NCBI GenBank assembly: GCA_037042915.1
Contig: CM073200.1
Span: forward strand, 1,054,001-1,118,000
Length of the DNA: 64,000 bases
Direction of reading: 5' to 3'
From: Auricularia sp. M13
Lineage: Eukaryota; Basidiomycota; Agaricomycetes; Auriculariales; Auriculariaceae
The position numbers and the translations under genes were made by a program. Below the pieces are notes generated by a model, which ran no database searches, was not told the origin of the DNA, and saw only the letters and a program-made list of their open reading frames with translations. Positions 2,041 to 62,516 of the stretch are shown in pieces; the stretch's first letter is position 1, and the number at the start of each line of letters is the position of its first letter.

Positions 2041-2699
2041 CATACACGGATAATTGTACTTCATCTCGCCTTCCAATCCGACCCCCGGAGTCACTGCATG
2101 AGAAACATTTTCACGGGACACACTAGTGTTATCTATAAGCACTGTAAGGCGATACAATGTAACCGATCGCGGAGAATGAGTTATTATGGATTGCGGCCTC
2201 GGGTGCTGAATTATAACTTGCCTTGGTGTAGGCGCCCACGGGCACAACGGAAGCCAACTACGCTGCATACATAGAAGACGGACGAACAGGACCAATATTT
2301 TGTAGTTTCTGACCATACTGAAAACCCCTCACGCTGATCAGGGCTTCAAAGCACATGTAGCGAGCTTGAAGACGCTACAGTGCACAAGACTCACGGAGAA
2401 TGCCATCAATCCATGTTCAAATTGTAGCAGGGACAGAAACAGGCAGTGACCATGCTCAGCGTCCACTGGGTGCCCGAAGAAAGCTTCGCGAACAGGCAAT
2501 TGCGTAACGCCCACATCGGCGACCACGAAGGTAACGGGCAGGAGCAGGTAGAGCAACTCATGACCACGGCTGACTGCGGGCGCCACGGAAAAAAGGCTGG
2601 CGTGTTCCACTGCTGTTGGTGGACAGCACAGCGCGCAATCGCAGGCGATGTTCGTCCACCCGATGCCCCAGACCAGCCACAAGCCATACAAAATGGGGT

Positions 2700-2860
2700 C
2701 AGCAGGGCGGAAAAAGAAGGAAAGCAAGGCAAAAGCAGTGATGGAAAGGAAAAGGAAAGTAAGAGGGGAAGGACGGGAAAGGGAAGGGAAGGAAGGGAAA
2801 GAAAAGCAGGTGGAAATTGGAGAGCAAAGGGAAAGGGAAAGGAAAAGGAGGTTTGGCACG
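2700..2860. repeat. Polypurine (GA-rich) tract
   Basis: About 160 bases consist almost wholly of A and G on the plus strand, with runs such as GGGAAGGGAAGGAAGGG. It lies directly after the VMA8 remnant. Such homopurine tracts can form triplex DNA and are slippage-prone. Confidence 0.75.
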
Positions 2861-2861
2861 C

Positions 2862-3381
2862 GCCTGAAAAACTCCTCGCGGTCCATCTCGTCGAGCGCGA
2901 ACATGATGAACTTGATGGTGTTGCCGAGAGTGGTGCTGACGTGCTCGATGGCGTTCACGCGCCAGTTCGTCGCGCGGATAACCTCATGGAGCACCGTGAA
3001 CGCCGTGCAGCGACGCGAGATCGACCAGCGTCTCCACTGCCTTGGCGTACACTTCCTCCAAGAGTACCTGCTGTCCGCCGCGCCCAGGCGGTCAGGTTGA
3101 GGTCTACAGCGATATTAGAGGCTATGGGCGGAGAAGATGGTGCGAACTTGGACGCACCTCTCCCTTGCACGATTTCACGGGGAAGGTGACGCCGTAAACT
3201 TTCTCTTGCCCCGCTTTGACCTTCATGCGGCGTTCTTGAACTGCTCCTGGACGAGATACGAGATGTCGCTGGCGGCGTAAGTGGCAGAAGGGCAGCTGCA
3301 TCACGCCGCCCATGTTGCGCTTCGCCTTCTTTGCCCCAGCTTCGTGTTGCCCAGCGTCATTCGCGTCGGGAACACATTTTC
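2862..3381 (-). pseudogene. VMA8: Decayed copy of V-ATPase subunit D
   Basis: Subunit D is part of the central rotor stalk of the vacuolar proton pump. Reading the minus strand, the start region shows NVFPTRMTLGNTKLG, then KAKRNMGGVMQ, then VKAGQEKVYGVTFP. Further on, in other frames, come VYAKAVETLVDLASL-like sequence and EVIRATNWRVNAIEHV...LDEMDREEFF. These are the conserved blocks of eukaryotic subunit D in the right order (its C-terminal block normally reads NRRVNAIEHV and ends DREEFFRLKK). The copy is broken: the blocks lie in different frames, the N-terminal helix is shortened, a conserved Arg is Trp, and the tail after EEFFR runs into a polypurine tract. The true gene must lie elsewhere. 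Confidence 0.75.
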
Positions 3382-6700: not shown

Positions 6701-7313
6701 CTACGACTATGAGTATCAAATGTCGTGATCTAGTCCCGATGTACTGACAAAAGAACGACACTCGGAACGCCGGGTGGCTGAGGTATAAATGCGCGGCTGG
6801 CGGATATATATGTAAGTCCTCAAGGCTACTTGAGTTACTGGCTGCTGTTGCGCTGCGCTACCTTCTTCGATGTCCGTGATGTTAGGGAGAACGATGCGCG
6901 ACGCTTCAAGTTGATGGACGACGACATAGACGCGGTTTGACTGAGAAATATGTGCCTATGAGTTGGGCGAGTTAAATACACTGGTACGGTGCAACAAGTT
7001 GTCTTTTTGCCCGCTGGTGCCACGCTTGCACTGGCCGCCGACCTGAGCCTGAGGCGCTGCAAGCCGAGCCCAAGCCGGGGCTTTCAGGCCGAGCCGGGCC
7101 TTCAAAACACTAATTCTGAATGACATTTCGGGCTTGAGGATCAGTGCTTATTTGTAATAACCTAGGCAATCTTTCGAAAGTTGGTGCCTGCACCGTTAAC
7201 GTCAAGGATGCAAAGTGTGAAAGTTTCTCCCCCCCCCTTGTGATGGGACTCCACGGCTTCTAGGTCCATAAAAGCTGCAAGGCGACTCCCAGATTGAGCA
7301 CAACTTACATCCC

Positions 7314-7830
7314 ATGGAGACGCACGAACCCCAGACGTTGCCTCCGTCCTCTATCGGATCCTCAGCGCCTTACAAAACCCCGATACAACGCTTGCAGGTT
7401 TCGCGTGCAGTGACTGACGGAGTAGTTGCCTACGAAGTTTACAGTCAAACTAGCTGTGAGGCCTTCTTCCCACTTATGTTAGCGCGCGTCTGATTTTCAT
7501 AGATGGTCACAATGTCCCCATTCACGAGATTCGAGTTGAGGAAACGTCTGCTGGATTTGTGGCGCACCTGATGACAGTACCCGACACCAATAATCTCAAG
7601 GTAAGTACCACGTCCCCTGATCGTTGTCTGAGCTGATTTCGCGCTCCAACGAAGCCGCATCGTCGTGGTATATTGAGGATAGGAATTTGGAGCCAGTTTC
7701 TTATGCTGTCATTTGTGGCGCTCCTTTGGTACGGCATGAGAGCAAGGGCAGTGTGGGTGGAACTTTTCTGCAGTTTGCGTCTGCCGCGAATGTAGGGAGT
7801 GCGAGGAATGTTCTATACCATGACATGTAG
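7314..7830 (+). pseudogene. Gene A, left copy (unknown function, frameshifted)
   Basis: A start at 7314 gives METHEPQTLPPSSIG and stays protein-like to FFPLMLARV, where it stops. One frame over it continues LIFIDGHNVPIHEIRVEE, then FVAHLMTVPDTNNLK, up to a GTAAGTACC donor at 7601. A last block, EDRNLEPVSYAVICG through LYHDM, ends at 7830. A CATAAAAG box at about 7267 would suit a TATA element. The frameshift near 7488 is shared with the inverted copy at 58148-58664, so it predates the duplication or my exon model misses an intron. No family is recognised. Confidence 0.4.
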
Positions 7831-8109
7831 AGCAGTACGACGTTGCAATTGAGCCCAATTTAGAAACCGATTTAGAAAGAACACGAGACGTCAATGAGCG
7901 CATTTCGCGTACAGTAATAAGGCGGACAAGACGGTAAGTAGGGATGCATGGGGCCTGAGGCAAGGAACACCCGCGGCTAGATAACCGATAATAATGACAG
8001 TAAACGAGAATGGGAACATGCCCTAGTCGACTACGGGATGGCGTATCGTTCGCAGGCCCGGAAGGACTCTTGATGACGTGGCCGAGTAGTTCTCGGTGAA
8101 AGACTGAGC

Positions 8110-9000
8110 TGCCGGAGGCGGCAAAGCATGACGGCGGATGACGGCGGCGAGGCGGCGGCCGTCAGCAAAGTCGAATGGGTTAGATTGAGGCAGGGCAAAG
8201 GCGAGGAGCGACGGCGGATGACGGCGGCGAGGCGGCGGCCGTCGGCAAAGTCGAATGGGTTAGATTGAGGCAGGACAAAGGCGAGGAAGCGGCGGGATGG
8301 CGGCGGCGGCGGCCGTCGGCAAAGTCGAATGGGTTAGATTGAGGCAGGACAAAGGCGAGGAGCGCGGCGGATGACGGCGCGAGGCGGCAGCCGTCAGCAA
8401 AAGTCGAATGGGTTAGATTGAGGCAGGACAAAGACAGCGAGCGAGCGGCTGCGGGCGTCGGCGGCAAGCTCGCAGTGCAATGATGGCGGCGAGGCGGCGG
8501 CCGTCAGCAAAGCCGACCGTACGAGATTGACGGCGCCAAGAGGCGGCAGGATTAAGACGGGAAGCGACGGCGGCTGGCGTCGACGGCGTGATGTTGTGAG
8601 AGTGATGCAACCGCCGTCGGCCAGCTGAGATTCGACCGTACGAGATTGACGGCGCCAAGATCTGGAAGCGGCAGGACAAAGACGGGGAGCGACGGCGGAT
8701 TGAGTGGACGGCATGGTCCAGATGATACTGACGGCGGGGAGGCGGCCGCCGTCGGCGAGTCCGCGTCACCGCCGTCAGCGAGTCTGCCGAAATGAACTGA
8801 CGGCGCCAAGAGAGCAGCGTGGGACAAGGAACGGCGACGGCGAGGGTGCCGTCGCCGGCGAGACTGCCAGAGTAATGCGCTGACGGCGCCAAGAGACGGC
8901 GCGGGGCAAGAAACGACGGCGGCGAGACTGCCGTCGCCAGCGGGGCCATCGGGTTAATGCGCTGACTTCACCGAGAGACGGCGCTGGGCAGCAAGGGTGC
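8110..9000 (+). repeat. GC-rich degenerate array built on TTGGCGCCGTCA (left arm)
   Basis: Repeated units with internal dyads alternate GACGGCGGCGAGGCGGCGGC with TGACGGCGCCAAGAGACGGC. At 8160-8420 a longer unit of about 80 bases ending TCGAATGGGTTAGATTGAGG occurs four times. The same motif array stands at 56985-57860, 23560-23960 and 36040-36480, always distal to the same promoter-like stretch. Confidence 0.75.
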
Positions 9001-9205
9001 CGTCGCCAGCATCACATGCATTGCTGGGCGTCAGCGGCTGTTCAAGGTTCAAGGTTCAAGGTTCATGTTCAGGCGCCGTCGCGGCCTCGGCCGATGCCTT
9101 TATTCTCTTGCCCTCCCGCTCCCAGTACAAAATGCGGCACCGCCGGCGCATATGGCTGCCCAAGTCGACCCCATCCGCCTGCGCGCCGCCTAGCCACTCA
9201 GGAAG

Positions 9206-10330
9206 ATGAAATCCGCCCAGACCGCGACGAAGCAGCGTCGCAGCCCTCGCAGGAAGGAGCCCGTTGCGCCCAAGCCTGCGCCTGCATCCCGTACCCGCCG
9301 CGCTCGTACTGCCCGCAAGGGGCAGAAGCAGGCCGGCTCATCCTTCGAGGATGTCGACATGGCGGTGAGTGTCTAGCAGCCGTCCTAGTACCATTGCCCG
9401 GGAATTGACCATTGAGCTTCTTCAGACTGCAGACTCGCCACGGCCGGACGATGTCGGCCCAGCAGATCAGGGTCAGCACAACACGGGCATGTCTGGCCCG
9501 TGCGCGGACGGTACAGTGTCTCAGCATGGCTCCGTCGGCGAGCTCGTCGTCCAGGTCGGTGTTGTCTCGCCAAATTCCGCCTGCTGACGCGCTGCCAGCC
9601 AACGCTCGACGCAGAGACTGTGGCGTCGTTGTCTCCGCCGCCGCCGCACGTTATCCAGGTCTGTACATAGCCTCTCCACTCGCCCTTCACTCACGCTCCC
9701 CCAGCCCTCAATCGATCCATCGCTTTTATCACATCCTGTGGCCGACAGGTCCTTCCTCATGGACCCGCGACCGGAAGCTAATGCTCAGGTCTGTGCACAG
9801 CTCACTCCTGTCTGTCCTATGCCCCGTCTCATCGGCCTTAGAATGAACATGTGCGGACTTCGCCGTTTCCTGAGCCGCAGCTTCGTTCCGCCCCGACGGA
9901 TATATTGCCCGTCCCCGCATCGTCTCGCCAGCCATCCTCCCCGCCGCCAGCTGACCCTTCTCCTTGTAACACGGGATCTGTGCGCTCGCTTCGTACCCAC
10001 CGTGTCCTATCGTTGACCATCCTCTATAGCACTGTATCCACATCGACCGGTCCGACAGTCATGTCAACCTCCAAATCTTCAAGACTCCATCGGACGCGAA
10101 AGATTCCTCTAATCAGGTCCATTGCAGTATCAAGTGCGACAATATCAAGTGCGATGAAGTTCGTCCTTCACATTTTCGCTTATGCGCAACTGACATATCC
10201 CACAGGAACATCACCTCAACATCAACCTTTACTTCGGCCCCCTCCTCGTGCGCGATTTGACTCTCGGTGCAAATTAAGGCTATCCGACCACGGCTTCACG
10301 GCGCGCGACGTGTTTCTGTATGTTGAATAG
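9206..10330 (+). CDS. Gene B, proline-rich hypothetical protein (partial exon model)
   Basis: The start at 9206 gives MKSAQTATKQRRSPRRKE, a basic Pro/Arg tail. Exon 1 runs to 9364, then GTGAGT...CTTCAG. Exon 2 runs 9426-9554 (TADSPRPDDVGPADQGQ...) and exon 3 runs 9599-9658 (PTLDAETVASLSPPPPHVIQ); all three stay in phase. Beyond 9780 sequence unique to this copy continues with NEHVRTSPFPEPQLRSAP and, near 10100, a Cys-rich VHCSIKCDNIKCDE. I cannot fix the last exons. The first 30 residues and the promoter closely match those of the RTC4-like gene at 22182-23397, yet the rest of the protein differs. Function unknown. Confidence 0.45.
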
Positions 10331-15182: not shown

Positions 15183-18100
15183 CTACGCAGACAGCAGGGC
15201 TGCGTCCGGAATTAGCATAGGCACCTTTTCGACTTGCTCCAGCGTCTCATAAACCCACTTTGCCGTTTTTGCTATCGAGTCCTCATATGAAATGAGTAGC
15301 CGTAGGTACGCCGCATGGTCATTGTATAGGACCAGAGGCAGTAAAGTAGGATGGGCTTGTCTCATTTCGTTCAGGAAGGCGGCGCGTAGTGCTCGGACTT
15401 CGGCAGTTGCTGCGCATCCAAGTAGGACATGTTCAGCTGTCTCTACATGAGTTTTGCACAGACGGCATAGCCGGTCGTCGTAATCTACTCGCGCTCGATA
15501 GCGCTCTGGCCATCTCAGGCGCTCAACTGCCAATGCATGGCAAGATAGTAGCACCCTAGTCAGTGCCTTACGATGCACATCATTATCAATGCAGAGATAA
15601 GGACGCATCGCGAGTACGGGGCCAGGGCGGTGACGCAGTAGGTAGAGTTTTTTGTTCGAGTCCAATTGGGCCTGTAAATCCGAACGCATCCAAGCCATGA
15701 TGCTCAACCGGCATTCCTCGACGGATTCTACAGAGAGGCTGTGCAGCGGGGGGAGACGGACTGGGGATCGTAACTTGAGAATGACAAGCTGTAAATCCAT
15801 GAGCCAGCCCTGTTGTTCGGCCGCAGTAAGCACTATACACTCTTTTATGGCCTGACTGACGAAGGAGTCTTGGGCCATAGAGAGTGTATACTGTAGGTAT
15901 CTGAGGGTCATGTCGATCCGGCGGAAACGGAGAGGGAAGATGCTGGTTTCCGTGTACAGAGGTGCGAGCACCGAGCGATCATGGACTCCAAGGTTTCGAT
16001 GCAGGAACATGGACTGTACGGCTGACAGTTTGTCCAAAAGTGGCTCATCTATGTCAGGCATTATCTCACAGCCGTATGTTAGCAGCAGGTCGATGCGCGC
16101 CATGTATAATGTCTTGGCCGCCACCGGGGGCAGACTATCAACCATGGCGTCAATATGGAGTACAGGGTGCGCAGCCGCACTTGATTTGCTTGCCCTTGAT
16201 TTGTAGTGGGCCGCAAACATATTGCGAGCATCTGATTGGAACTGGACGCCCAGATATGTATAGGAGTGCACGATTTGGACTACTTCTTCCCCGAACCGGA
16301 ACACCGGCAGCGAGCGTGGGCGGGGACCGTGTATGCTGATTGAGGATTTCATGGCATTAATGACCATGAAGTTTATCCGGCACCAGTGGTAGAACACATT
16401 CATTTTACACTGCAGGCCTTCCGTGGACGTTGACACAAGTAAGAGGTCATCCGCATGCTCCAAATGTGATATGGTGGTCCCGTTCAAGTCCAAATCGTCA
16501 CGGTGAGGCTGCAAGTAGAAGTCCGCGAGGTATATTGAGAAGAGTAATGGGGACATGGTGTCGCCGATGAGTATACCAATCGTGGACTCAAATGCCGTTG
16601 ATTCCTCGCCGTTATTAGTGACGACATATCTCATGCCTGCGTAGAGAGCGCGCAGCCAGTCATAAATTTTGCCTTGCATACCAAGCTGTTTGAGCTTTAG
16701 CCATAGCGTAGGGCGGTCTGTCGAAGGGAAAGCATTTGTTATGTCAACCGTGGCAACATATAAAGTCTTTCCAGCAGCTCTAGCCTTGTCTATCAAGCAA
16801 CGCAGCAGGAACGCATTGTTGATCGTGCGGAATCCTTTTCTGAACCCGTTCTGCGAAGGCGGCAGCAGGCCTCTGGCTTCGGCCCATTTTGTAGTCCGTA
16901 GGAGCGCAAGTAGCGTCAAGGCTTTGAGGCCCTTCGATTCCGCACCGATTGTGCGCAAGTGTTCAGCACGAGCAGGGTCTTTACCTCGCTTCAGCGCCGC
17001 ATAGATCACAGTGATAAGCCAGATTTGGGGGGAACTTCTCTGTTCGAAGCAAGTGTTGGCCAGGTGCATGAGCGCGCCATCATCCATTTCCGCAATGTCA
17101 ATGTCCGAGACTCCGTCTTTACCAGGAGTCTCGCCGCCTGCATGTTCTTTATGGTGCTGTCTCAGCTGAGAGATATCTTCCAGAGCAATAGGGCCGTCGA
17201 AAAATTGCTCCTTTGAGACATCGATTGTCTTTTCAGGGATCAGAGCGGCACGGATCGCGTTGAGTTTGCGTAGGACACCGTCTATGGAGGCTGGCGCAGG
17301 ATCTGCAGGATTCATGCGCGGCTCAAAGACGATTTTAATATCCTCCGCCGACAGCGGCGAAGTGCTGGCCAAACGGTTTGGGTCATTCAGGCGACGATAC
17401 AGATTCCAAAATAGGGCAGCGACTGGTGAGGCTTCGAGTAACTTGTTGAGATTCTCACGCTTTTTTGCCTGTACTGGGTTATCTGTTGCATCCATGGGCT
17501 GTTCCTTTGGTTTAGCAAGAGGCAGTGGCAAGCCCGGAGCCTTGGGATGCGGAAGATCTACTACGACCTTCGGGACACCGTTTGGGTTGACCTGGAAAGG
17601 GTGCAGCAAGGCAGCATCAAGCAAGTCGCTATCCAGGTCCGGGACAGCATCTTTGAGTGAGCCTGATTTCGCGAGCTCGTCCGCTTTCTCATTCGGAATA
17701 GACACGCTGTGGGCCTTCACATGTGAGAACCGCACCTGTGCGCTACGGTGCTGAATGTTCGACGCTATGAGCCTGAGGATGTCCCCATTGGGAACCAACC
17801 AGTTGTCTAATGCAGCGCGCGGCGCATTCCAGGTAGACGCCGTAATAGCGTACTCTGAGTCGCTAAAGATGCGGAGATCTTTGTCTGGCAGGGCATCGCG
17901 CAGTGCCAAGAATATTGCGAACACTTCTCCGCGGTTGTTCGTTTGGCCGGGCCCTGGCGTGCGCACTGCTAAGTTCAGAGCATTCCCTTCTCCCCAGTAT
18001 ACTCCCGACCCCGCGGCTGCATGCGCGGACCCGTTGCGCGAGCACGAGCCGTCGGTAAAAGCCTCGCGCGATGTGGACGATACTGTGGCGTACCCAAAGA

Positions 18101-19088
18101 ATTGGGCGAGTTTTGCTTCTGGGTCTGTGCGCGTGAGCAGGGATTGAACATAGAGACGATCGAGCTCAGTATCCATGGGTAACGCGGGCGGAACAGACCT
18201 CTTGGCCCGCGCGGCAGTCGCAAGGCTGTTCGGAGTGTGTTCCCTCGGGAAGCGTGCTTGGACAACCACTCGTGAATGGTCAGACCAAGCCGGTTGATGG
18301 TCTGCAATCTCTACGACGGTGATTAGAGCACGAGCCTCTGAATTAGCAATGACGAGGTCTATGACTGATTTGCCTTGCGGCTGATGTGACGTGAAGCGCG
18401 TCGAGCTCTCACCCAGTGTGCCATTCAGTACCGCTAGATCCAGCGCTCGCAGCAGAATGAGAAGTTCCCTGCCGCGCTGGTCAGCTGTTGTGTCCTGAGA
18501 GACACGCATAGGGTGCCCATCTGCGGCCCTGAGGAGCCCAATGCGCGCGTTGATATCACCCACTACTATCACTGGGCGATTCATCCGGGCAAGCGCAGCC
18601 AGTATTGATTTGAGGGCATCAAGTGGGTGGGTATGCACCCATTCACTGGGTACCGTGCTTCCACGGGGCAGAATATAGACTGCAACAATAACAACGAAGC
18701 CCAGGTCCAGCGTCAGGATGTCCGGTCCTGAGAGGTCGTCGCGCACCGTATATGTAAGGGTTTTGCTGACCAGCACGAGGATTCCACCTCCAGGGCGGCG
18801 AAGAGAGGATGAGCCCGGGCGAGAGCGGCAAGCAATGCTGTAGCCTCGAGGCGGCGCTATCGTGAGATGTTCAGCAGGCCGAAGCCAGGTCTCCGAGAGT
18901 AGTACAATGTCGTGCTGCAGGAGTTGTGAGAAGCCCGGGCAGCTCAGTTTGACCTTCAAGTCTCCATGGATGTTCCAGCTTAATATGCTCAGGTCTAGGG
19001 GAAGTGAGCGACCGCTGGTATTATTTTCGGGGTCCCGAGACTGTGGTACAGTAGGTACGATGGGTAACGGGTTTTGGGAGACTGGCAA
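15183..19088 (-). CDS. LINE ORF2: endonuclease - RNase H - reverse transcriptase - CCHC
   Basis: This 1301-aa protein nicks target DNA and copies the element RNA into the genome. Domains in order: APE-type endonuclease at residues 33-275 (SWNIHG 37-42, SETW 65-68, GDINAR 177-182, SDH 269-271); type I RNase H at 340-475 (TDGSC with Asp346, GEVFA with Glu388, FSDSEYA with Asp410, KADELAK with Asp470); reverse transcriptase at about 650-960 (VDITNAF with Asp782, GILIGDTMSP 838-847, HADD 878-881); CCHC knuckle Cys1208, Cys1211, His1220, Cys1225. In RNase H-bearing LINEs known to me RNase H follows the reverse transcriptase; here it precedes it. All catalytic acids are present. The usual aromatic residue of the FADD/YADD box is His. 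Confidence 0.92.
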   Translation of the reverse strand: MPVSQNPLPIVPTVPQSRDPENNTSGRSLPLDLSILSWNIHGDLKVKLSCPGFSQLLQHDIVLLSETWLRPAEHLTIAPPRGYSIACRSRPGSSSLRRPGGGILVLVSKTLTYTVRDDLSGPDILTLDLGFVVIVAVYILPRGSTVPSEWVHTHPLDALKSILAALARMNRPVIVVGDINARIGLLRAADGHPMRVSQDTTADQRGRELLILLRALDLAVLNGTLGESSTRFTSHQPQGKSVIDLVIANSEARALITVVEIADHQPAWSDHSRVVVQARFPREHTPNSLATAARAKRSVPPALPMDTELDRLYVQSLLTRTDPEAKLAQFFGYATVSSTSREAFTDGSCSRNGSAHAAAGSGVYWGEGNALNLAVRTPGPGQTNNRGEVFAIFLALRDALPDKDLRIFSDSEYAITASTWNAPRAALDNWLVPNGDILRLIASNIQHRSAQVRFSHVKAHSVSIPNEKADELAKSGSLKDAVPDLDSDLLDAALLHPFQVNPNGVPKVVVDLPHPKAPGLPLPLAKPKEQPMDATDNPVQAKKRENLNKLLEASPVAALFWNLYRRLNDPNRLASTSPLSAEDIKIVFEPRMNPADPAPASIDGVLRKLNAIRAALIPEKTIDVSKEQFFDGPIALEDISQLRQHHKEHAGGETPGKDGVSDIDIAEMDDGALMHLANTCFEQRSSPQIWLITVIYAALKRGKDPARAEHLRTIGAESKGLKALTLLALLRTTKWAEARGLLPPSQNGFRKGFRTINNAFLLRCLIDKARAAGKTLYVATVDITNAFPSTDRPTLWLKLKQLGMQGKIYDWLRALYAGMRYVVTNNGEESTAFESTIGILIGDTMSPLLFSIYLADFYLQPHRDDLDLNGTTISHLEHADDLLLVSTSTEGLQCKMNVFYHWCRINFMVINAMKSSISIHGPRPRSLPVFRFGEEVVQIVHSYTYLGVQFQSDARNMFAAHYKSRASKSSAAAHPVLHIDAMVDSLPPVAAKTLYMARIDLLLTYGCEIMPDIDEPLLDKLSAVQSMFLHRNLGVHDRSVLAPLYTETSIFPLRFRRIDMTLRYLQYTLSMAQDSFVSQAIKECIVLTAAEQQGWLMDLQLVILKLRSPVRLPPLHSLSVESVEECRLSIMAWMRSDLQAQLDSNKKLYLLRHRPGPVLAMRPYLCIDNDVHRKALTRVLLSCHALAVERLRWPERYRARVDYDDRLCRLCKTHVETAEHVLLGCAATAEVRALRAAFLNEMRQAHPTLLPLVLYNDHAAYLRLLISYEDSIAKTAKWVYETLEQVEKVPMLIPDAALLSA

Positions 19089-19102
19089 ACTAGCTGCCCA
19101 AC

Positions 19103-20204
19103 TCAGTTTAACGTAGCCTGTATGTTCTCATACCCAGCGGGGCGGGCCATGTTCCACATCGCGACGAAGTGCTGTGCAACGGCTGCGCTCTGGAACGTAA
19201 CGTAGACGAAGTTTGAACCGGCCCTCGTAGCACGGATGTTGCGGGCGACCGTTTGGCCGCGGGGCATGATGGCAATGAGCGAACGCACCTGGCCCGTGAT
19301 GTCCTTGGCCCATTTCATCGGGCCGATGGTGGCAGAAAGGCCAGGCGTAGGTCCAACACTCGCCGCAGCCTGAGCAGACATTGGCGGCGGCGCGACCGGC
19401 ATGTGGGCAGCCTGCATGTGGGTGGGAGCAGGCAGCGCGGTCGGCGCCAAAGCCAGCGGCGCTGGGGCGATAGGTGGATGAGCAGCAGCCGCTGCAGCGG
19501 CCGAGAGAGGAGCCCGTTGGGCAGCAGCCAGAGTCGATGCGTGGAGCTGGCTCTGCACAACGCCCGTGTCCGTCGCCTGCGTGAGCGGGGCGAATGAGTA
19601 CAGCCGCGCGCGTTGGGCGGTGCGACGGCTCACCTGGTGCCAGTCATCGTCTTGTCAAGCACGTTTGAGTGGGCGCACGACTGGGACGCAGTCACCACCG
19701 CCCGTCGTCAGGGACGGGGCCGGAGCGACGGTAGTGTTTGATCCCAGGCGGTTAACGAGGGCAAGGAGCTGCTCTTGCGTCGTCCGGATCTGGTCGAGCG
19801 AGTCGGATATGGTATCCACGCGCTCGACGACTGCGTTATGACCCAGGACAGGGCACCTCGCGTGCCTCAACGTCGCGTTGCACGGGTAGCAGCGTGGCGT
19901 CGTCGGACGGGTCAGCGGCGAGCAGCTGAGCCATCGTTAGCAGGCTGTTTTTGACGGGCGAGAGACCGCCGTTCCCAGATACAACGTACGGCCATTTATG
20001 TGCACGGAGCGTCGCCGACGTCGCCGGCAGCCATGCGGAAACTTGACGATAAGGACCACTAAGCAATTGCCGGTGGTCATGCATGTCGTCCTCGTGAGCA
20101 AGAGCGGGAGCAGGTTGCGTAGTGGGCGCGAGGGCCATCATGGGCGAGATTGCAGCCTGGCACGGGCGAGCGCATGGCTCTTCACCGCCAGCGGGAGCAA
20201 ACAC
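19103..20204 (-). pseudogene. LINE ORF1-like region with breaks
   Basis: The C-terminal part (19633-19103) is Ala/Pro rich and ends with the compact block RAGSNFVYVTFQSAAVAQHF, a shape seen in nucleic-acid-chaperone ORF1 proteins. Upstream in the same frame, across one TGA near 19656, lies a short coiled coil (ERVDTISDSLDQIRTTQEQL). Another frame (20204-19836) continues further upstream. One in-frame stop and one frameshift are visible. The region ends 14 nt before ORF2, the usual close spacing. The assignment rests on position and composition, not on a recognised domain. Confidence 0.5.
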
Positions 20205-31470: not shown

Positions 31471-34400
31471 ATGCATCTCAAACCGGGCCAGCGTCTTTGT
31501 CAGTGTGTCTCGTTCGGCTGTGGCGCTCGAAAGACACGCAACCTCGGCGGCAGGCTCGTGCCCGGATACCCCGTCTCCCCAAACGACCTGCGTCTGCACG
31601 CCGAACAGGACCGGGCGTCCAGGATTGCGGGATCCGCTCCTCCCTTTGTCTGCGCCAAGGACGACGATTTCTCATGGCTATCGTTGCATCCCGAGGCGCA
31701 CTACGAATCTCCACGCTCGACCGCTCAGACCCAGCGCAGTCCTAGTAAGGACTTTGCAGCAGGTCCTTCACCTCAAAAGGATCCAGACTCTTCGCTGTCT
31801 GTCGCTTACCTTGACATCCTTCGCACCGAGTTATTCGCACGCATGGTCATCTGGAGATCCCAACTTCGCACAACGCCGTTCGACGTTGGCCCTGCTGGCA
31901 CCATGACATTTCCGCATCTCGAGGACATGGCCTGGCTCGGAAGAATCAGGTCCGTGGTTGCGGACGGCTCCACCGACCTCGTACATGTCGCCAACCTCAA
32001 GTCACACGTCCTCATGCTCATTGACCGCGAAATCGCTTTCCTCAATGAGCGTAAGGCTCATTGGGATAGAAAGATCGTCGCCTCAAATCCTGGAATTGCG
32101 CAAGCCACGAGTAAGCAGACTCCTTGTCAGAATATCTGTCTGTGTATGTTGGATTGACAAATTCACAGCGCCGGCGTTTCTGTTCTGGCCTGTACCAGCG
32201 GTCTCGGCATGCGCGTTATTTCTCCTTTCTTTGCAGCTCGTATTTGGACTGAGCGGTCCCGCTCTTACATTCGTCTGGCACTTCCTTAAACTTCTGGTGG
32301 ATCAGGTCACAACTGCAGCTGGGCCAGTGCCACCAGAAATTGCACGCGTTCGCACCGCATTCGACAATCTTCCCCGCAGCGCGAATACTATCCTACGCAA
32401 AGTGGACCTCGGTACGAACGTGGTGATCTACGCATCGTGCCCTAGATGTGGACATCTTGCTGCCCCGGAGCAATTGCTCGACTCGTCCGTAATCACCTAT
32501 CCGGAGACATGCCAAAGACAAGTACGGAAAGCCAACAAGATCTATACGTGCAATACTGCTCTTCTGGACACCGTAGAGCATCAGGTCGAAGGTGATGCGT
32601 AGTTACCCTCGATCATTCGATTACTGACGCCGGCTTACTGCGTAGGGATCCTGAAGAATGTGTCGAAGGTTCCGATCAAGCCGTTCGCATATGCCAGTAT
32701 CAAAGACTGTATAGCGCAATTTCTCGCCAACAGCACAATCGAAACGGCGCTCGTGACGTCTGCCAAGATTCTGAACGAGCACACTTCGCGCCCTTTTGAC
32801 CCGACCGCCGCCATCAACGACATTCGACACGGTAGGGTCTTTTCAGCATTTGTGGGCCCTGACGAAGAGACCAAATTCTTCTATTCTTCTGGAAACGATC
32901 TCAAACTCGCCTTTAGTTTATCAGTCGACTGGTTCCATCCGCGCGGCGCTACGAAACGCAGTTTTGCAAGTCTCGGTCTGATTTCTCTCTGTTGCTTGAA
33001 TCTGCCGCCAGAGATTCGTTTCCTACCAGAGAATCTATTCGTTGTCGGCGTTCTTCCCGGGCCGCGGGAGTCGAAAATTCAACCATTTCTCGAGCCTCTG
33101 GTCGACGATCTAATCGCGCTTTGGGACTCTGGTGTGTACGTTCCCCAGACTGCTCTCTGTCCTGAAGGGAGGCGGGTTCACGCTGCACTTCTTCCCGTGG
33201 TATGCGACATGCAGGCCGGCCGAAAGGTGCTTGGGTTCAATCCACCTACCGCAAATTATGCCTGTCCATATTGCCATTGTCACAGCGACCGCTTCTCCGA
33301 CGTCGACATTATCAACGGCACATTCATTCGCCGAACGTGGGTCGAATGGAAGCGCCAAGCTGAGCAGTATCGTGAAGCGGGTACAGTCGGGGAAAGAAAA
33401 CGCCTGCAATCAACCAACGGCGTTGCTTGGTCCGAGCTGCTACGATTGCCGTACTGGGATCCTACTCGGTATTTCGTCGTTGACGGCATGCACAATCTCT
33501 TCCTCGGCGTGGTCAAACATCACGTGCTCGAAGTCTGGGAGATCGACGTGGCGGCAAAGAAAACCCAGAAGCCTAAGCCAGTAACGACGCGACGGAAGCG
33601 GCGACAAGTACAACTACCAACGGCCATGTTTTCTTCGCATGCACTGACTGGAAAGGCTGTAAAAAGCGGTATGTCTTCTGGCTCAAGAACCTGCTACCCA
33701 TACTCATCGAGACGATCGTAACATAGCTGAGACTTTACTTGCCAAGACGGGTGACCGTGACCGGTGGGACAAGCTAGCAAGAAACCATCCCCATCCAGTG
33801 CTATTGCACATGTGCAACATTCGGCAGATCCACGTCGCATCTGCTTCTGCCAAACCTTCCCGACAGGAATGCGTTGCGGCACTGCGGGCTCACGTAAGGT
33901 CATCCTCTGTTGCGTGACGATTACTAAGAGTTTTAAAGGTGGATTCAGAGAATATAAATCAGATGCTCGCGACCCAAACACTAACTGTGCGTGTGTTTGT
34001 TCTGAGTTACTTTTTTCATGATTCTGACGTAGTTTCGCAAGCCCGACCCAATCCCAGACCATCAGGGACAACCGAAGCCTGCTAACTTGGCGCAGGCTGG
34101 CGCAGAGGCGCAGACAGAAACTCAGGCAGCAGCGCCGGCCCAAACGCGGGCTCAACCGCCGGCGCCAATTCAGCATCCACCGCCGCTGGGGACGACTACT
34201 CAGACCGGAACACATGCCCAGCCGCGCCAGCAGGCTCCTAATACGGCCCCATCATCTAATCCTCATAGGATGATACCCTCTGACGTCGAGAGGGTGAGAG
34301 ATATTATCTCTGCCGTGTCGACGCCGTCCTGGCTCGGTCGTGTGGCAAGAGATTTTGGGAGTGCCTCACACGGCACTCCGAAGGCTGATGAGTGGAGGAC

Positions 34401-37827: not shown

Positions 37828-40800
37828 AGGGGTGCCAACCGTAGCCGTCAAAACCGTAATACGGTCGTAATACGGGTACGGAGTCAACCCGTATAGCCCG
37901 TAATGTCTACGGCCGTATACGGTCCGTGTACGGGATACGGGCAGGTATCGTGAAATCGGTCTGCTCTGGGATCGGAAGCTGCTTAGGAGGCGCAATTTAG
38001 GCTATCTCACCGCTCTTGTGGGTCATCGGATAGGACGCATAGGCACAGTGTATGTTTTTAGCGGGTGTGACTGGGCCGGTGCCCTCCCGCGCGAGTGTAT
38101 TACGAGTCGAGTGAAAGGCCAGTGATAGAGGGCTAAAGGACCGAGTGGCGAGACGAGTGAGACGGCGAGCATCGAGCCTCGTTAGGCAATGAGACCGGCG
38201 AGGATCGGGATGAGAGCCGGATTCTTGCGGATATAGATCTGGAAAGCTTCTGAAGTCCAGCGGCCCATCCGTTGGATGACGTTGTCGGGCACGCCGCGCA
38301 GCGCCAGGTCTGTGGCGCCGCCGGAACGGATGGAGTGCCCACGGATGTTGTTGGGGAAGTTATGACGGAGGTAGCGGATGAACCAGGAGCATCGCGGCAC
38401 GCTTCCGTCAGCACGGACAAAGAGGGCGGGGTGCAGCCTCGTGTTGGGGTTCGCCTGACGTCTGTCGAGGTACGCCCTCATTGCTGGCAGAGCATTGGCG
38501 TCGTCGTTGCGAGCGGTTATAACAACAGTGTCGCCGTCAAAGAACCGATTGCCCTTGTGCCCGGGCAGGGTGAAAGAGAATTGCTCTACGCCATCACCAC
38601 CCAGAGCGTCGGGCCGGCGCCAAGCGAAAGAGGAGAACTCGATGACCTTGCGCCACTCGGCAAGAGCGCTTGAATCGGGCCAGACCAGTTCCCCTAGGCG
38701 CAAAAGGGCGTTGAAGCCGACGAACAAAATTGCCAAGAATAGCAAGTCGTCCTGGGACTGAGATCCGCCGTACTTGGCAGCCATGCGGGCCAGATCGGCC
38801 TGGGACAGCGGCGACTTGCGTTTGACAGAGTGCGCGGACATCTTTACGCAGCCGGCGACGGTGTTCCGCACAAGATCAGACGTGCGACTTGCTCGGACGT
38901 GGGGATAGAATGGTTCGAGAGAGTGGCAGATGCCCGAGAGGTACGAGCGTACAGACGCTGCGGAGATGTAATGATATTCGTAGGCAGCGTATAGCGACAA
39001 TGTGTCCGCGGTCGGGTCGACGGCGAGGCCATGGCGCTTGCAAAAGTTCTGATATGACTTGAGATGCGAGTTATAATTTCTGCGAGAGCCAGCTTCGAGC
39101 GAGAAACCGAGGGCAGTGTTACGCGCATTCTGCAGCTCCTGTAGAGACCACGTCGCCCGTTCTCCGCGCTTTGCGGCGTTTCGGGATGGAGACATTGGGT
39201 GCGGCTCGACGGATGGGGGCCGGCAGGAAGGACTCGATGGATAGACCAGCCACGAGTTCGCACGCGCGATCAAATAGGCCGCGGGAGAGCGCATCTGCCA
39301 CCGGATTTTCCAGGCCTGGAATGTGGAATACTCGGAACGAGACGCCGGATGCGATCGCGAGGTCACACGCCGTGAATAGAATGTCGTTGTACAGTTCCAG
39401 CGCCTTCAGGCTGCTGAACATGTCGGCCGAGTTCTGAGAGTCTGTGAAGAGCGCAACGCGCCTCGGGTGCTCTTGCCGCTGGCAGGCTGTATGCAGTGCT
39501 GACAGAACGCACAGAGACTCGTTGAATATAATGTTGTCATGCGGGTGCACGCAAGCAAATCCGCGGCGTTCGGCAGGGATCCAGAAACCGAGGCCGGTCA
39601 GCGACGCGTCGCAGATGAGAGTGATGTCGGCTTCATGGGCTTGCCAGTGCTGAGTGATCAGCGTCGAGGAGTTGCAGTGGGGCGGCACGATCTAGCGTCT
39701 CGGCAAACCACGTTAGGTCACGAACTACAGTGGCATTGAGTATGACGGGCCATGAGCGGCCATCTTTTCCGGAGCACTTTGACCAGGCGGCACTCAGTCC
39801 CGGGCGCAGGAGTGGGTAGGCGTACAGAGACCAGCTAGCTTGCCCGAGAAGGCTTTGCCATTCACGCAGCGGGCGCATCATCGTGTCGGAATCGGAGCGG
39901 GGGTTGACAAAGTCTAGGAGCTTGCGCACCAGATCGCAGCGCTGCTCCTCCGGGTATGAGATCGTCATCGCATTAGGGTCTACGTCAAACCCGATGATGC
40001 GGAGTGGAACACCATGGATTTGCTTGTCCTCGCTGTGTGGAATGCCGATGTCGTCCCACAGTTGGAGGAGCGCGGCTTGTTTCCGCGGGAGCTCGATGTT
40101 GAACGGTTCGTACAGTACCAGGTTGGAGAAGTCGTCGAAGGAGAAGCTGTCATCGACGTACACAAGCAAGGAGTCGATACCGCGAACATAGACAGCAACG
40201 TAGAGCACGAGCGCCATGAGGCTGAACCAGAGATCGCCGGAGGATTTCGTACCAAAGTTGCAGCAGCGGTCGACATGCCGCTCTCCGTTAACAGAGACGA
40301 TCTGCTTGATTTGCCACAGAGGGTGCGCGGGCAGCCTACGGTACGCTTTGGACACGTCAGACTTGAATAGGCGGAGTGGAGCGTCGGAAAAGGTGCGGCG
40401 CGCGCGCAGGAAGCGCACGAGATCGTGCAGGGTGTCAAGCCTCGTAGAAACATTCTCGCGCGAAATGAAGGAATTCAGCGATGGGTCGCCGGCACTGTGG
40501 TCGACGACAAGGCGAAATTTATCGGAGTGGGGCTTGGGGACGGCAAATACGGGGGAGCTGAACATCCCCGGCAGGAGTGCAGGTCCAAAGTCTCCCGACC
40601 ACCTCTCATCGCGCACTTCTTCATCTCTTGTTTGCTCGTAAAAGTCGAGCCTGTCGCGCGGCCACGGCTTGGGGTCGGAATAATCGACAGTTTGCGGGGC
40701 GTTGGCGAGGAAAGTGTCGGCGAGCGGCCAGAAGCCCTCAAGCAGGCCGGTGATGACAGAGTCGACAAACGGACGGTTTGGGTGACCAGTGAGAAGGTCA

Positions 40801-43328
40801 CGAAGTCGCAGCGCGTTGATGGGAGTGACGATTTTGAAAAGATCGGGGCGCGCGTTGATCGTGTTGACAGCGTCGGTATTGAGGTATTCGGACGGAGGGG
40901 GGCGCGGCAGCGGATACGCAGAAAAAGTAGCTTCTATTGACGGTGCTACAAGACATTGATCGTTCTCTGGGCGTCCCCAGACCATGCCTCTCGTATACTT
41001 GGGTGGTTTTCTACTGCGGCAACCCTCCTCCTCCGGCGGCACGTGCGGCGATCCTAGCTCGGGTTCCCGCTTCCGCTTCCTTGCGGACGGCGTCGAGGTG
41101 ATCTCTTGCGCCGTGGTCGCGACGGTAGCAGATGCGGCAGAGGTGGAGGTGGCGGCATTTGTCGTACCTGCACGCACGGTCATTGAAGTTGTTGCATATG
41201 TCGCCGCTGGGCTCCGGGCGAGTAAGTTTGGGCTTGCCGGTGCGGCTGGATTTGGCTGGATCGGCGGAGTCGCCAATAACTGCGCTACCCCAGGCGTGGG
41301 TGTGGCGCATGTGGGTGCGAGTGAGCTGGTCTTCGTCGAAGAAAGACCAGGATCGATGGAGAGCAACTTCGTTTCGCATGGCGATATCGGCCTTGATGAC
41401 GGCGGCATGCTTTGATTCGTGGAAAGAGTCGAATAAATCGTTGACGAAGCGCCCGTAGCACTTGAGTTCGTCCTCGCGGTGAGGGTAAGCGTAGACGACA
41501 GCTTCTGTGTAGCTGTTCCAACACTCCTGCCAGTGACTGCGGTTGGCGACTTTGCGCGTGATGCGTGACGCGCCAAGGACGATGTAAGCGTCGACATTGC
41601 CGAGCTGCTGAGAAGTGCGTTCGGCGACCTGTGGGGCGAATCGCGCGCTGAGAATCTTGTCGAAATCGACAGTGCGGTTGGCGAGGACGTGTTCCCAAAG
41701 ATCTTCGGGGAATGCGGGGGCGCGTCCGTCGCAGAGGAGGTCGAGTTTTGCGGCCCGGAGGTCAGCGCAGTAGTTTGCGCGGATGGCGAGAGTCCGCGCG
41801 ACGTGCGGTGTGATGTGCTTGGCGAAAGATCGTGCGCCGGCTGCGCGGAAGGGCGCGAGGGATGAGTCGTAAGTCGGGCGCTTGCGAGGGTTGCTTGCTC
41901 GAACAGAGTCTCCGTCGCCGTCGCCGTTGCCGTCGCTGTCGTCGGATGGCTGGTGGACGGAGGCAGGGGACTGCGAGCGAGACGGCTGCTGAGTGGTGGG
42001 AGGAGCAGGGCCGGCTGGCTGGCCTGCCGTGGCGACTGGGGGCGCTGCACTGCCGCCGACGGGAGCGTTGGGCTGAGCGTTGGCGGCAGCAGCAGCGGCG
42101 CGAGTAGCCCCCGCAGCGCGAGCGATGACTGTGGAGCAGATGTGCTGGCAGATGGCGTCAATGTACGGGTCGACGTCCTCGGGACGACCACCGCCAGCCC
42201 TGATGTGCGTGTTGATGTCGCGGACTGCGTCGGCGCGGTTGATTCGTCCGCTGCAAAAAGCTGATAGAGTCGCCGCACAGTTGTTTGCGGTGGCTGCGTC
42301 GAGAGAGGCGGCTGCGGCGCCAGGCTGGGTGCCCGCGGCACCCGCGCTGGGCCGGGGGAGCGCGGGACCAGCGCTGGGCTGGGGGGGCGCGGGACCGGCG
42401 CTGGGTTGAGGGCGCGCGGGACCAGACCCGGATTGACGAACGGGATTGCCGGCTGCGGCGCTGATGGGAGCGCGAGGCGCTGCAGCAGCGGGTGCGGGTT
42501 GACCGAAGGCGGCAGACGGCGGGGCTCCGGAGAGGCGCTGCGGATGCGCGCCAGCAGGGCTGGCGGGTCGCTGCGACGACCCGCTGACGTTGGGCTGCTG
42601 AGGCGAGCCGCCAGAGGTGGCGGTGTTAGCCGGTCTGAATATAGGTCCTGTGATGGGCTGGAGAGGCGCTCGAGAAGCGCCGGAGGTCTGTTGCGGCTGT
42701 GGCGGCGAAAGCGACCCGTGTTCATGTCTTTCTGGCATATAGCTAGTCCGAAGCGCGAGCAGGAACTGGCGAGCGCAGCCGAAAGAGAAGAACACGGGGA
42801 GACGAAGCGCATATGAGCGCTTATAACGCGGACGGTCCGCGAGAGGACGATCGCGTGCGGGCCGCGCGAGTGCGGGCCGCGGACGACGTAGCGCCAGTTC
42901 CCGCTTGACCACACAAGATCATTGTAACAGACTGCTAAACTGCAAGTTTACACCCGCTACATACCCCAAAGCAGGATTTCATGCTGATGCCGTGCCCTGA
43001 GGCTCGGATCTCACAGACTTAGTGACATTGATGCGCCGGAGATTGGGCGTTAACACCGCCGCGGACGTCGCCAACTCTGAAACAATGCTCTTCAGAGCTC
43101 CATAATTGCACGAGGGCGCATATCACTGCTCAATAATGACCCATATTTGTTCTTCTGGTGACCTGGAGCGGTCAAGGCACGTCGAAATTGTATGCTCCCC
43201 GTATATACGGCCGTTGACGGCTGTATACGGGTTCCACCCATACCGTATATGGTACGGTCCGCAACCCGTATCCAGCCGTCTGCTGTACGGCCGTCACCCG
43301 TATACGGTACGGTTGACAGCCCTACAAG
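37828..43328. mobile_element. hAT-like non-autonomous element enclosing a DIRS fossil
   Basis: The left end reads AGGGGTGCCAACCGTA and the right end, inverted, (CTTGT)AGGGCTGTCAACCGTA, the AGGGGTG type of hAT termini, with exact 8-bp direct repeats outside. The right end has about five extra bases, so the match of ends is not perfect. The first 130 and last 140 bases are packed with CCGTATACGG and ACGGGTA motifs in both orientations, the kind of subterminal repeats hAT transposases bind. No hAT transposase is present. The DIRS-type element occupies most of the interior and presumably entered a short hAT MITE later. Confidence 0.55.
38182..42914 (-). mobile_element. DIRS-type tyrosine-recombinase retroelement (fossil)
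   Basis: Parts in order on the minus strand: a gag-like region with a CCCH/CCHC-type zinc segment near its end (about 41.0-42.9 kb), reverse transcriptase plus RNase H (about 39.1-41.0 kb), and a tyrosine recombinase (about 38.2-39.4 kb) with the usual R...HxxR...Y signature. The recombinase in place of an integrase defines the DIRS group. The element looks close to whole, with perhaps one or two breaks, so it is not very old. I could not identify its terminal repeats with confidence; a short AGCGGGTGT motif occurs in inverted form just outside both ends of the coding region (near 38067 and 42953). Confidence 0.88.
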
Positions 43329-54682: not shown

Positions 54683-56068
54683 TTAAATGAAGCACGTACT
54701 TCGCCAAAACTTCAAACTTTCGTCTCCTGCACCAGTGACCACAACTGTGCCAGCCGGCGCAAGGGTGCTATATAGAACGCGCGAGTTGTGCGCGTCGCAA
54801 ATCTCCGTCACGACATCCATCCTAGGGTAAGCATAGACCATCAATGAGTTGGTGTGGTGACCATGTGTACTGAGGAACTCTTTTTTGTGCGGCGACCAAA
54901 TGATGGAAGTAACCTGTGCAGGGGTCTTGACCGTCTGCAGCCGCGCACCCGTTGTCACAGACCAGATGTGGATGTTGGCGTCCGATGTGCCACCGCCGGA
55001 AGCAAGAACGTGCGAATCCCAAGGAGCCCATGCTATAGCCTGACGGGTACTCAGTCGCTGGGATTAACAAACAACATATTATACCTTCACAGCAGCTTGA
55101 TGATTTCGCCTTGTCATCTTGGCATCGACCAACTTCTGCGACGCGACCTCGCCTATCCTAGCATCCCAGATGTTGACCACATTATCATTTCCGCCACTGG
55201 CGAGGAGCTCGCCGTCCGGGCGCCATTTTAATCCGCAGACGTCGCTAGTATGTCCAAGGAGAACTTGAACCTTGTGTTGTGCAATGCGGACGTCGTGGTG
55301 CCAGACGGAACCGTCTCCGCAACCTGAAGAAAGAATGAATTTATTCCAACTCAATGCGGCAACCTGCCCCTGATGGCCGCTCATGGTGCGCAACTTGCGG
55401 CTGGCCTCTGCATCCCAAAGCTCGACTGCCCCATTACCAAGACCAATACCGATCATGTTGCCGTCGGCAGACCAATCCAAGGAGGCGATGTATGTTCCTA
55501 CTGGACAGGAGCCTATAGCGCAGACTTCTCCGGAGGATGCATTATACATGTAGGGAGTCGCGCCCAGGGCCGCTGCAAGGACGTTCCTTGAAGAGAAGGA
55601 TAGCAAGTTGAGATAAAAATCGTCAACCATGCCTGGATCAACATAAGTCCGACAACTGAATCTGAATGCAGGATGGACGAACCAGGAGCATCCAGCACAC
55701 ATTCAGGGGTAGTAGCAACTTCTCTTGTTGCGCGCTGCGGAGGAACACCGTCGAGACGAGGAAATTGCTTCTTGAGCAAGTCTCGCTCGACCAGAGGCTG
55801 AGAGAATCGCATGATAGGTTGACCATAGGGTACTCCCACAGCCTGGGCTAGCCGTGCCGTGTGACCAGGAGACGAAGAGCGGACGTGGTAGTCAACGACG
55901 GTGGCCAAAGAGTTCATATGGCTACGGTCACTGATAAAGCGGTCTCCGCGCTGAAACTCGAGGTCAGATTATGAGAGAACGGCATTGAGGTAGTATTGGA
56001 ATCATACGTACCACGCATTTCTTCGACGGGGAAGAAGCTGGCGAGCGACAGAGGTTCACGGAGCTCAT
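54683..56068 (-). CDS. Cdc20/Fizzy-type APC/C activator
   Basis: Four exons, 56068-56012, 55950-55683, 55632-55085 and 55039-54683, with GTACGT, GTTCGT and GTATAA donors, give 409 aa in one frame. The WD40 propeller carries Cdc20 hallmarks: VLDAPGMVDDFYLNLL, WDARIGEVA, AVKAIAWAPWDSHVLASGGG, STHGHHTNSLMVYAYPRMD and SRVLYSTLAPAGTVVVTGAG. GDRFISDRS stands where the C-box (DRYIPxR) is found. Such proteins bring substrates to the anaphase-promoting complex in mitosis. Oddities: the tail before the C-box is only about 20 residues here, no KEN or Mad2-binding motif is seen, and the end (KFWRSTCFI) lacks the usual Ile-Arg. An upstream exon may have existed; its frame is open to an acceptor-like TCCTAG at 56102. 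It may be a divergent paralogue rather than the main CDC20. Confidence 0.85.
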
Positions 56069-56195: not shown

Positions 56196-56772
56196 AGCTT
56201 CCCGTCGCGGGTCCACGAGGAAGGACCTGTCAACCAAGGGATGTGGTGGAATCGATGGATCGATTGAGGGCTGGGGGAGCGTGAGTAAAGGGCGAGTGGA
56301 GAGGCTATGTACAGACCTGGATAACGTGCGGCGGCGGCGGAGACAACGACGCCACAGTCTCTGCGTCGAGCGTTGGCTGGCAGCGCGTCAGCAGGCGGAA
56401 TTTGGCGAGACAACACCGACCTGACGACGAGCTCGCCGACGGAGCCATGCTGAGACACTGTACCGTCCGCGCACGGGCCAGACATGCCCGTGTTGTGCTG
56501 ACCCTGATCTGCTGGGCCGACATCGTCCGGCCGTGGCGAGTCTGCAGTCTGAAGAAGCTCAATGGTCAATTCCCGGGCAATGGTACTAGGACGGCTGCTA
56601 GACACTCACCGCCATGTCGACATCCTCGAAGGATGAGCCGGCCTGCTTCTGCCCCTTGCGGGCAGTACGAGCGCGGCGGGCGGGTACGGGATGCAGGCGC
56701 AGGCTTGGGCGCAACGGGCTCCTTCCTGCGAGGGCTGCGACGCTGCTTCGTCGCGGTCTGGGCGGATTTCAT
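56196..56772 (-). pseudogene. Gene B, right copy, 3'-truncated
   Basis: Starts MKSAQTATKQRRSPRRKE like the left copy and carries the same first three exons, with a one-base deletion at the end of exon 2. Similarity to the left copy stops at 56196, where sequence upstream of the Cdc20-like gene begins, so the rest of gene B is missing here. Confidence 0.6.
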
Positions 56773-56984
56773 CTTCCTGAGTGGCTAGGCGGCGCGCAGG
56801 CGGATGGGGTCGACTTGGGCAGCCATATGCGCCGGCGGTGCCGCATTTTGTACTGGGAGCGGGAGGGCAAGAGAATAAAGGCATCGGCCGAGGCCGCGAC
56901 GGCGCCTGAACATGAACCTTGAACCTTGAACCTTGAACAGCCGCTGACGCCCAGCAATGCATGTGATGCTGGCGACGGCACCCT

Positions 56985-57860
56985 TGCTGCCCAGCGCCGT
57001 CTCTCGGTGAAGTCAGCGCATTAACCCGATGGCCCCGCTGGCGACGGCAGTCTCGCCGCCGTCGTTTCTTGCCCCGCGCCGTCTCTTGGCGCCGTCAGCG
57101 CATTACTCTGGCAGTCTCGCCGGCGACGGCACCCTCGCCGTCGCCGTTCCTTGTCCCACGCTGCTCTCTTGGCGCCGTCAGTTCATTTCGGCAGACTCGC
57201 TGGACGGCGGTGACGCGGACTCGCCGGACGGCGGCCGCCTCCCCGCCGTCAGTATCATCTGGACCATGCCGTCCACTCAATCCGCCGTCGCTCCCCGTCT
57301 TTGTCCTGCCGCTTCCAGATCTTGGCGCCGTCAATCTCGTACGGTCGAATCTCAGCTGGCCGACGGCGGTTGCATCACTCTCACAACATCACGCCGTCGA
57401 CGCCAGCCGTCGCTTCCCGTCTTAATCCTGCCGCCTCTTGGCGCCGTCAATCTCGTACGGTCGGCTTTGCTGACGGCCGCCGCCTCGCCGCCATCATTGC
57501 ACTGCGAGCTTGCCGTCGACGCCCGCAGCCGTCGCCGCTGTCTTTGTCCTGCCTCAATCTAACCCATTCGACTTTTGCTGACGGCTGCCGCCTCGCCGCC
57601 GTCCGCCGTCGCTCCTCGCCTTTGTCCTGCCTCAATCTAACCCATTCGACTTTGCCGACGGCCGCCGCCTCGCCGTCATCCGCTGTCGCTCCTCGCCTTT
57701 GTCCTGCCTCAATCTAACCCATTCGACTTTGTCGACGACGCCGCCCGCCGCCGCCGTCATCCGCCGTCGCTCCTCGCCTTTGCCCTGCCTCAATCTAACC
57801 CATTCGACTTTGCTGACGCCGCCGCCGCCGCCGCCGTCATCCGCCGTCATGCTTTGCCGC
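56985..57860 (+). repeat. GC-rich degenerate array (right arm)
   Basis: Same organisation as at 8110-9000: GCCGTCTCTTGGCGCCGTCA units near gene B, then about 80-bp units containing CCTCAATCTAACCCATTCGA four times. Copy lengths differ from the left arm by small indels. Confidence 0.75.
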
Positions 57861-58147
57861 CTCCGGCAGCTCAGTCTTTCACCGAGAACTACTCGGCCAC
57901 GTCATCAAGAGTCCTTCCGGGCCTGCGAACGATACGCCATCCCGTAGTCGACTAGGGCATGTTCCCATTCTCGTTTACTGTCATTATTATCGGTTATCTA
58001 GCCGCGGGTGTTCCTTGCCTCAGGCCCCATGCATCCCTACTTACCGTCTTGTCCGCCTTATTACTGTACGCGAAATGCGCTCATTGACGTCTCGTGTTCT
58101 TTCTACATCGGTTTCTAAATTGGGCTCAATTGCAACGTCGTACTGCT

Positions 58148-58664
58148 CTACATGTCATGGTATAGAACATTCCTCGCACTCCCTACATTCGCGGCAGACG
58201 CAAACTGCAGAAAAGTTCCACCCACACTGCCCTTGCTCTCATGCCGTACCAAAGGAGCGCCACAAATGACAGCATAAGAAACTGGCTCCAAATTCCTATC
58301 CTCAATATACCACGACGATGCGGCTTCGTTGGAGCGCGAAATCAGCTCAGACAACGATCAGGGGACGTGGTACTTACCTTGAGATTATTGGTGTCGGGTA
58401 CTGTCATCAGGTGCGCCACAAATCCAGCAGACGTTTCCTCAACTCGAATCTCGTGAATGGGGACATTGTGACCATCTATGAAAATCAGACGCGCGCTAAC
58501 ATAAGTGGGAAGAAGGCCTCACAGCTAGTTTGACTGTAAACTTCGTAGGCAACTACTCCGTCAGTCACTGCACGCGAAACCTGCAAGCGTTGTATCGGGG
58601 TTTTGTAAGGCGCTGAGGATCCGATAGAGGACGGAGGCAACGTCTGGGGTTCGTGCGTCTCCAT
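58148..58664 (-). pseudogene. Gene A, right copy
   Basis: Inverted twin of 7314-7830, starting METHEPQTLPPSSIG and ending LYHDM, with the same frame jump after FFPLMLARV. Function unknown. Confidence 0.4.
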
Positions 58665-62400: not shown

Positions 62401-62516
62401 TAGCAGCGTTGAAGAAAAGCATGCAAGATGCATTGCTCCACGAAGTATCGGCCTCACCGAAACTCAGCATACTACATCACAGGGTGGAATACACGACCAA
62501 GGGACGGGTCGACGCA

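Follow-up and report, generated by a model that had tools for sequence, protein, structure and literature searches.

A 64,000-nucleotide stretch of contig CM073200.1 of Auricularia sp. M13 (the window; positions count from its first letter) carries a long interspersed nuclear element (LINE) in which the second open reading frame (ORF2) places an RNase H between the endonuclease and the reverse transcriptase (RT). Judged by its apurinic/apyrimidinic (AP) endonuclease, LINE-type RT and C-terminal CCHC motif, the element (copy 1) is a non-LTR (long terminal repeat) retrotransposon of the AP endonuclease (APE) type. The same domain order is found in a diverged relative in the window (copy 2). A likely history is that an ancestor of this APE-type LINE acquired a full RNase H of cellular (RNase H1-like) type, lying in ORF2 behind the endonuclease and ahead of the N-terminal part of the RT. 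The coordinates of both copies and of their domains are collected in Table 1.

The ORF2 frame of copy 1 runs from stop to stop at 15183-19127 on the minus strand; read on the plus strand, 15183-19088 contains many stops. At the composition of the window (56% G+C), about 49 stops would be expected by chance in 1301 codons. The original prediction, which had been made from the letters alone, described a single 1301-codon frame with endonuclease, RNase H, RT and CCHC knuckle in that order, and a Pfam profile search bears it out. The RNase H had been placed at about residues 340-475, where the RNase_H profile matches at 342-476, and Asp346, Glu388, Asp410, Asp470, Asp782 and HADD (878-881) are all at the positions given. 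The N-terminal endonuclease, which is also matched by PF14529 (E-value 1.6e-9), contains the motifs LSETW (64), GDINAR (177) and SDH (269). In the RNase H the catalytic set is complete (D346, E388, D410, H460 and D470, that is, D-E-D-H-D), and His460, within KAHS at 458-461, aligns with the corresponding His of RNase H1. The C-terminal CCHC motif coincides with a weak zf-RVT match (residues 1188-1230; 0.0097, below the Pfam cut-off). There was no Pfam match to a second RNase H after the RT, in residues 966-1301 (the last 336) of copy 1. Among PDB structures, the RT of copy 1 matches R2 (7.3e-15) and L1 ORF2p (3.2e-11) only. The R2 match begins at residue 641, which suggests that the RNase H precedes the whole RT module and does not lie inside the polymerase.

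Does this order belong to a single element or to a lineage? A tblastn search of the window with the copy 1 protein (E-value up to 1e-3) found one other location, copy 2, which was extended by local alignment. It comprises the 3' part of the endonuclease, RNase H, RT with HADD and the zinc region, in that order, and the spacing of the zinc motif is that of copy 1. The pieces flanking its frame changes and insertion were searched separately against Pfam. For the RNase H pieces the values are 5.7e-14 (above cut-off) and, at the far end, 0.0041 (below), becoming 4.8e-22 when the two are joined with an X at the stop. The endonuclease end (0.00074) and the start of the RT (0.069) also fall below cut-off, and each of these below-cut-off pieces aligns with copy 1. 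Since the two copies share only 33-35% of their amino acids they represent different families, and an order common to two families is therefore a lineage trait. The prediction that the order is not a local rearrangement, because it recurs in a second diverged copy, holds up at this level of identity.

Copy 2 itself is dead: besides two stops it has an insertion of 773 bp (62516-63288) and two frame changes, which fall within about 61234-61299. The insertion ends in terminal inverted repeats of at least 14 bases (AGGCCCCCGGCTTA), is flanked by an 8-bp target duplication (GTCGACGC) and by its looks is a non-autonomous DNA transposon. An inverted pair of 2.7-kb sequences with internal repeats, 98.2% identical, lies at 7115-9779 and 56196-58862, one of its members stopping about 560 bp short of copy 2.

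Between the copies, the RNase H has the highest fraction of identical residues among the parts compared (64/134, about 48%), and its catalytic residues are identical in both. It is followed by the zinc region (residues 1157-1228; 33/71) and the RT palm (761-950; 83/189). Lower values were obtained for the endonuclease end (41/108), the stretch between endonuclease and RNase H (18/57), the linker from RNase H to RT (45/160), residues 641-737 (23/96) and the region after the RT (54/200). The bounds of these parts were chosen by us, following Pfam for the RNase H, and the counts omit residues 738-760, which span the frame changes. On this measure the RNase H is no less conserved than the RT palm, and its standing as the best conserved part argues that it is neither a chimera nor a decaying passenger. 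A chance chimera, formed when some other element or an RNase H gene of the host inserted into a single LINE copy, would have some precedent in the window, where nested insertions occur and copy 2 holds one. The unbroken 1301-codon frame and the conservation of the RNase H speak against it, and it is rejected because a family only 33-35% identical has the same order; both copies would have had to be joined independently, which makes such an origin very improbable.

What kind of RNase H was gained? The best PDB match of the copy 1 domain is human RNase H1 (6.8e-17, 65.0 bits), with bacterial enzymes at no more than 31.5 bits and retroviral ones at no more than 22.1 among the best 60 of 69 matches. 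For copy 2 it is again human RNase H1 (69.7 bits), bacterial and retroviral enzymes reaching at most 41.0 and 35.9 bits among the best 60 of 135. Both copies share with cellular RNase H1 the D-E-D-H-D set and the stretch AGxGVYWG...N...R.PG..QTN..E; they differ from it in being embedded in a LINE polyprotein and in being only 34-35% identical to the human enzyme (47/135 for copy 1, 46/136 for copy 2). The two domains are thus closer to each other than to human RNase H1, as a single ancestral gain would give. Searched alone, either domain matches PF00075 and no other Pfam family. An archaeal or plant-type RNase H was considered and rejected, the copies having His (His460 in copy 1, AHG in copy 2), not Arg, and no match to RVT_3, the plant/archaeal-type RNase H family. 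In that type Arg stands at the His position (PMC5348765; PMC4640811).

The RNase H could also have reached its place by domain shuffling in a Tad/I-type LINE, moving from behind the RT to the front, with no gain from a cellular gene. Among the clades that bear an RNase H, Tad1 is the most familiar one in fungi, and the RNases H of LINEs themselves belong to the general RNase H1 type. I-group clades, Tad1 included, do carry an RNase H (PMC4640811). Such a move is at odds with the best match of both copies being cellular RNase H1, in a contest that is unfair in so far as the PDB matches showed no I/Tad RNase H; it is likewise at odds with an RT that matches R2 and L1 only, a result that reflects which structures have been solved. 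On balance we consider the move unlikely, and gain from a cellular gene is favoured, though not proved, by the sequence comparisons. The original prediction had left the RNase H as either moved or separately acquired: its cellular look is in line with separate acquisition.

Several points weigh against gain from a cellular gene in a working lineage. As no RNase H of I/Tad type was seen among the PDB matches listed, the match to RNase H1 is compatible with a LINE source. Only two copies are in hand, both from one window. Relatives were sought by pattern in a viral contig collection (4, 12 and 264 matches in the scans) and in a genome contig collection (13 and 214), neither of which holds fungal genomes as such, and no relative emerged from either. 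An AlphaFold2 model of the RNase H from a two-row alignment was unusable, with a mean pLDDT (predicted local distance difference test) of 38.1. Finally, copy 1 itself seems to be non-autonomous, since ORF1 looks broken by stop codons further upstream in its frame, and the RNA downstream of the candidate frameshift site described below folds no better than shuffled sequences (z -0.27), giving no sign of a stimulator.

In the proposed mechanism, the endonuclease would nick the target DNA and the RT would copy the element RNA from the nick. Such nick-primed copying is target-primed reverse transcription, as in other LINEs. About 160 residues of linker connect the RNase H to the RT that follows it; poorly conserved and perhaps flexible, this linker may let the RNase H reach the RNA-DNA hybrid from the N-terminal side. 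There the RNase H probably strips the template RNA during target-primed reverse transcription, so that the second strand could be made without host RNase H.

The ORF2 protein may be produced as an ORF1-ORF2 fusion through -1 frameshifting. Its start in Table 1 is a TTG assigned under the bacterial start rule, and Met first appears at residue 169. Relative to ORF1, whose end it overlaps, ORF2 is in the -1 frame, and it is this overlap, together with the lack of an early ATG, that points to a fusion. ORF1 ends in ACG TTA AAC TGA (19103, minus strand), and GTTAAAC occurs once in the window, both strands considered. A slippery heptamer abuts 4 of the 3768 stop codons in the six frames, and one falls within the last seven in-phase places before the stop in 36 of the 3768, this site being counted both times; the set comprised the 24 standard slippery heptamers plus GTTAAAC, which was added after it had been seen. 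In equine arteritis virus, G_UU(A) is a natural shift site (2016 review, PMC5009743). The heptamer is a reasonable lead, not a result. Within the window ORF1 has no convincing relative (best value 0.046). Of the exact repeats on either side of copy 1, the longest measures 12 bp (14617 and 21689) and the next ones 9 bp; no tail or boundary stands alongside.

Table 1. Coordinates of the two LINE copies and their parts in the window (E-values from Pfam; EN, endonuclease).
Feature	Positions	Strand	Details
ORF2 of copy 1	15183-19088	minus	1301 codons; EN - RNase H - RT - CCHC
AP-type endonuclease	18276-18983	minus	residues 36-271; PF03372 Exo_endo_phos, 3.7e-14, above cut-off
RNase H	17661-18065	minus	residues 342-476; PF00075, 1.1e-20, above cut-off; 1.8e-22 searched alone
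Reverse transcriptase	16239-16961	minus	residues 710-950; PF00078 RVT_1, 1.1e-18, above cut-off; D782, HADD 878-881
C-x2-C-x8-H-x4-C motif	15414-15467	minus	residues 1208-1225; CRLCKTHVETAEHVLLGC
3' part of ORF1	19103-19654	minus	183 codons; no Pfam match
GTTAAAC	19106-19112	minus	in the phase of ORF1 and abutting its TGA; candidate site of -1 ribosomal frameshifting
Copy 2, related family	59426-63516	plus	5'-truncated, broken; 33-35% amino acid identity to copy 1
RNase H of copy 2	59972-60385	plus	retains the catalytic residues; broken by a TAA (60272-60274)
RT palm and downstream region of copy 2	61299-62507	plus	RVT_1, 1.4e-9, above cut-off; in-frame TGA at 61449-61451
C-terminal zinc region of copy 2	63298-63516	plus	beyond the insertion; zf-RVT, 0.063, below cut-off; aligns with copy 1

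Other features of the window concern its setting. A fragment of a tnp2/Plavaka-type transposase lies at 32660-33721 on the plus strand (PF02992, 3.8e-12; PF18759, 0.00028, below its cut-off). Plavaka elements are typical of agaricomycetes, and a fungal origin of the LINE fits their presence here. On the minus strand, 38182-42914 holds two neighbouring frames, one of 394 codons whose Phage_integrase match is sub-threshold (0.00053) and one of 1093 codons without a Pfam match; this is possibly a tyrosine-recombinase element. Two host-type gene fragments, also on the minus strand, encode ATP-synt_D (2341-3114; 8.9e-11) and a CDC20/Fizzy-like WD40 protein (55082-55702; 7.5e-57, narrowly missing its cut-off), and fit the nuclear genome of a eukaryote. 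Rfam and tRNA scans of the window found nothing.

The domain order of copy 1 is real and is conserved between two families, yet it is a variation on a known theme. The original prediction knew of no description of such an arrangement; this view is weakened, as an RNase H upstream of the RT has been published for the Utopia LINEs of oomycetes (Kojima and Jurka, 2015; PMC4640811). For the order AP endonuclease, RNase H, RT, no description was found in the literature covered, which consisted of parts of open-licence papers. It is a serious possibility, though we lean somewhat against it, that the element belongs to a fungal LINE clade already described with this order, for example Deceiver, Inkcap or Repbase families. 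This would be compatible with the gain proposed here and concerns its novelty. The main survey of fungal LINEs, by Novikova et al. in 2009, is said to describe the Deceiver and Inkcap clades. Both names date from 2009 and denote LINE clades of fungi other than Tad; Laccaria bicolor is a reported host of Deceiver (PMC4427930; PMC3411680). Against a described clade, Utopia is the only LINE with RNase H before RT in the literature covered, and the upstream position was called unique to oomycete Utopia in 2015 (Kojima and Jurka, 2015; PMC4640811). More tentatively, and with more doubt than confidence, the two families could represent an APE-type LINE clade, so far undescribed and separate from the I group, that took up an RNase H1 from its host between endonuclease and RT, in an event distinct from those in the I group, plant L1 and Utopia, and that expresses ORF2 fused to ORF1 by -1 frameshifting at GUUAAAC. 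If true, an RNase H would here be placed upstream for the second time in LINEs, and for the first time alongside an AP endonuclease.

Tad1 and other I-group LINEs resemble copy 1 in having an AP endonuclease, RT, RNase H and C-terminal CCHC motif in ORF2, with ORF1 ahead; in these elements, however, the RNase H comes after the RT. The domain list given for a Tad element of Paracoccidioides likewise has RNase H after RT (PMC4427930). In copy 1 the RNase H is at 342-476 and none is found C-terminal to the RT, in 966-1301. The L1 elements of plants and oomycetes are, like copy 1, APE-type LINEs and, as is proposed for copy 1, acquired an RNase H of cellular type without belonging to the I group; theirs is archaeal, with Arg, and follows the CCHC motif at the C-terminus of ORF2 (PMC5348765).

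Oomycete Utopia is similar in layout, being a LINE with RNase H upstream of RT in one polypeptide. It differs in both nucleases: its endonuclease is restriction-like and C-terminal, and its RNase H is archaeal-like, Arg replacing His. It also has N-terminal zinc fingers (PMC4640811). In copy 1 an AP endonuclease stands before the RNase H, which has His, and no Pfam match to a restriction-like endonuclease was obtained. Utopia inserts into U2 small nuclear RNA genes; Rfam, which includes U2, gave no match at gathering score in the window. Why some LINEs carry their own RNase H when the host has one is still called enigmatic (PMC5348765). An RNase H kept in front of the RT, and no less conserved than the RT palm, amounts to a natural experiment, and its conservation in the upstream position suggests that what counts is the activity and not the side of the polymerase on which it lies. 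With the Auricularia elements added to oomycete Utopia, upstream placement would be seen to have arisen more than once.

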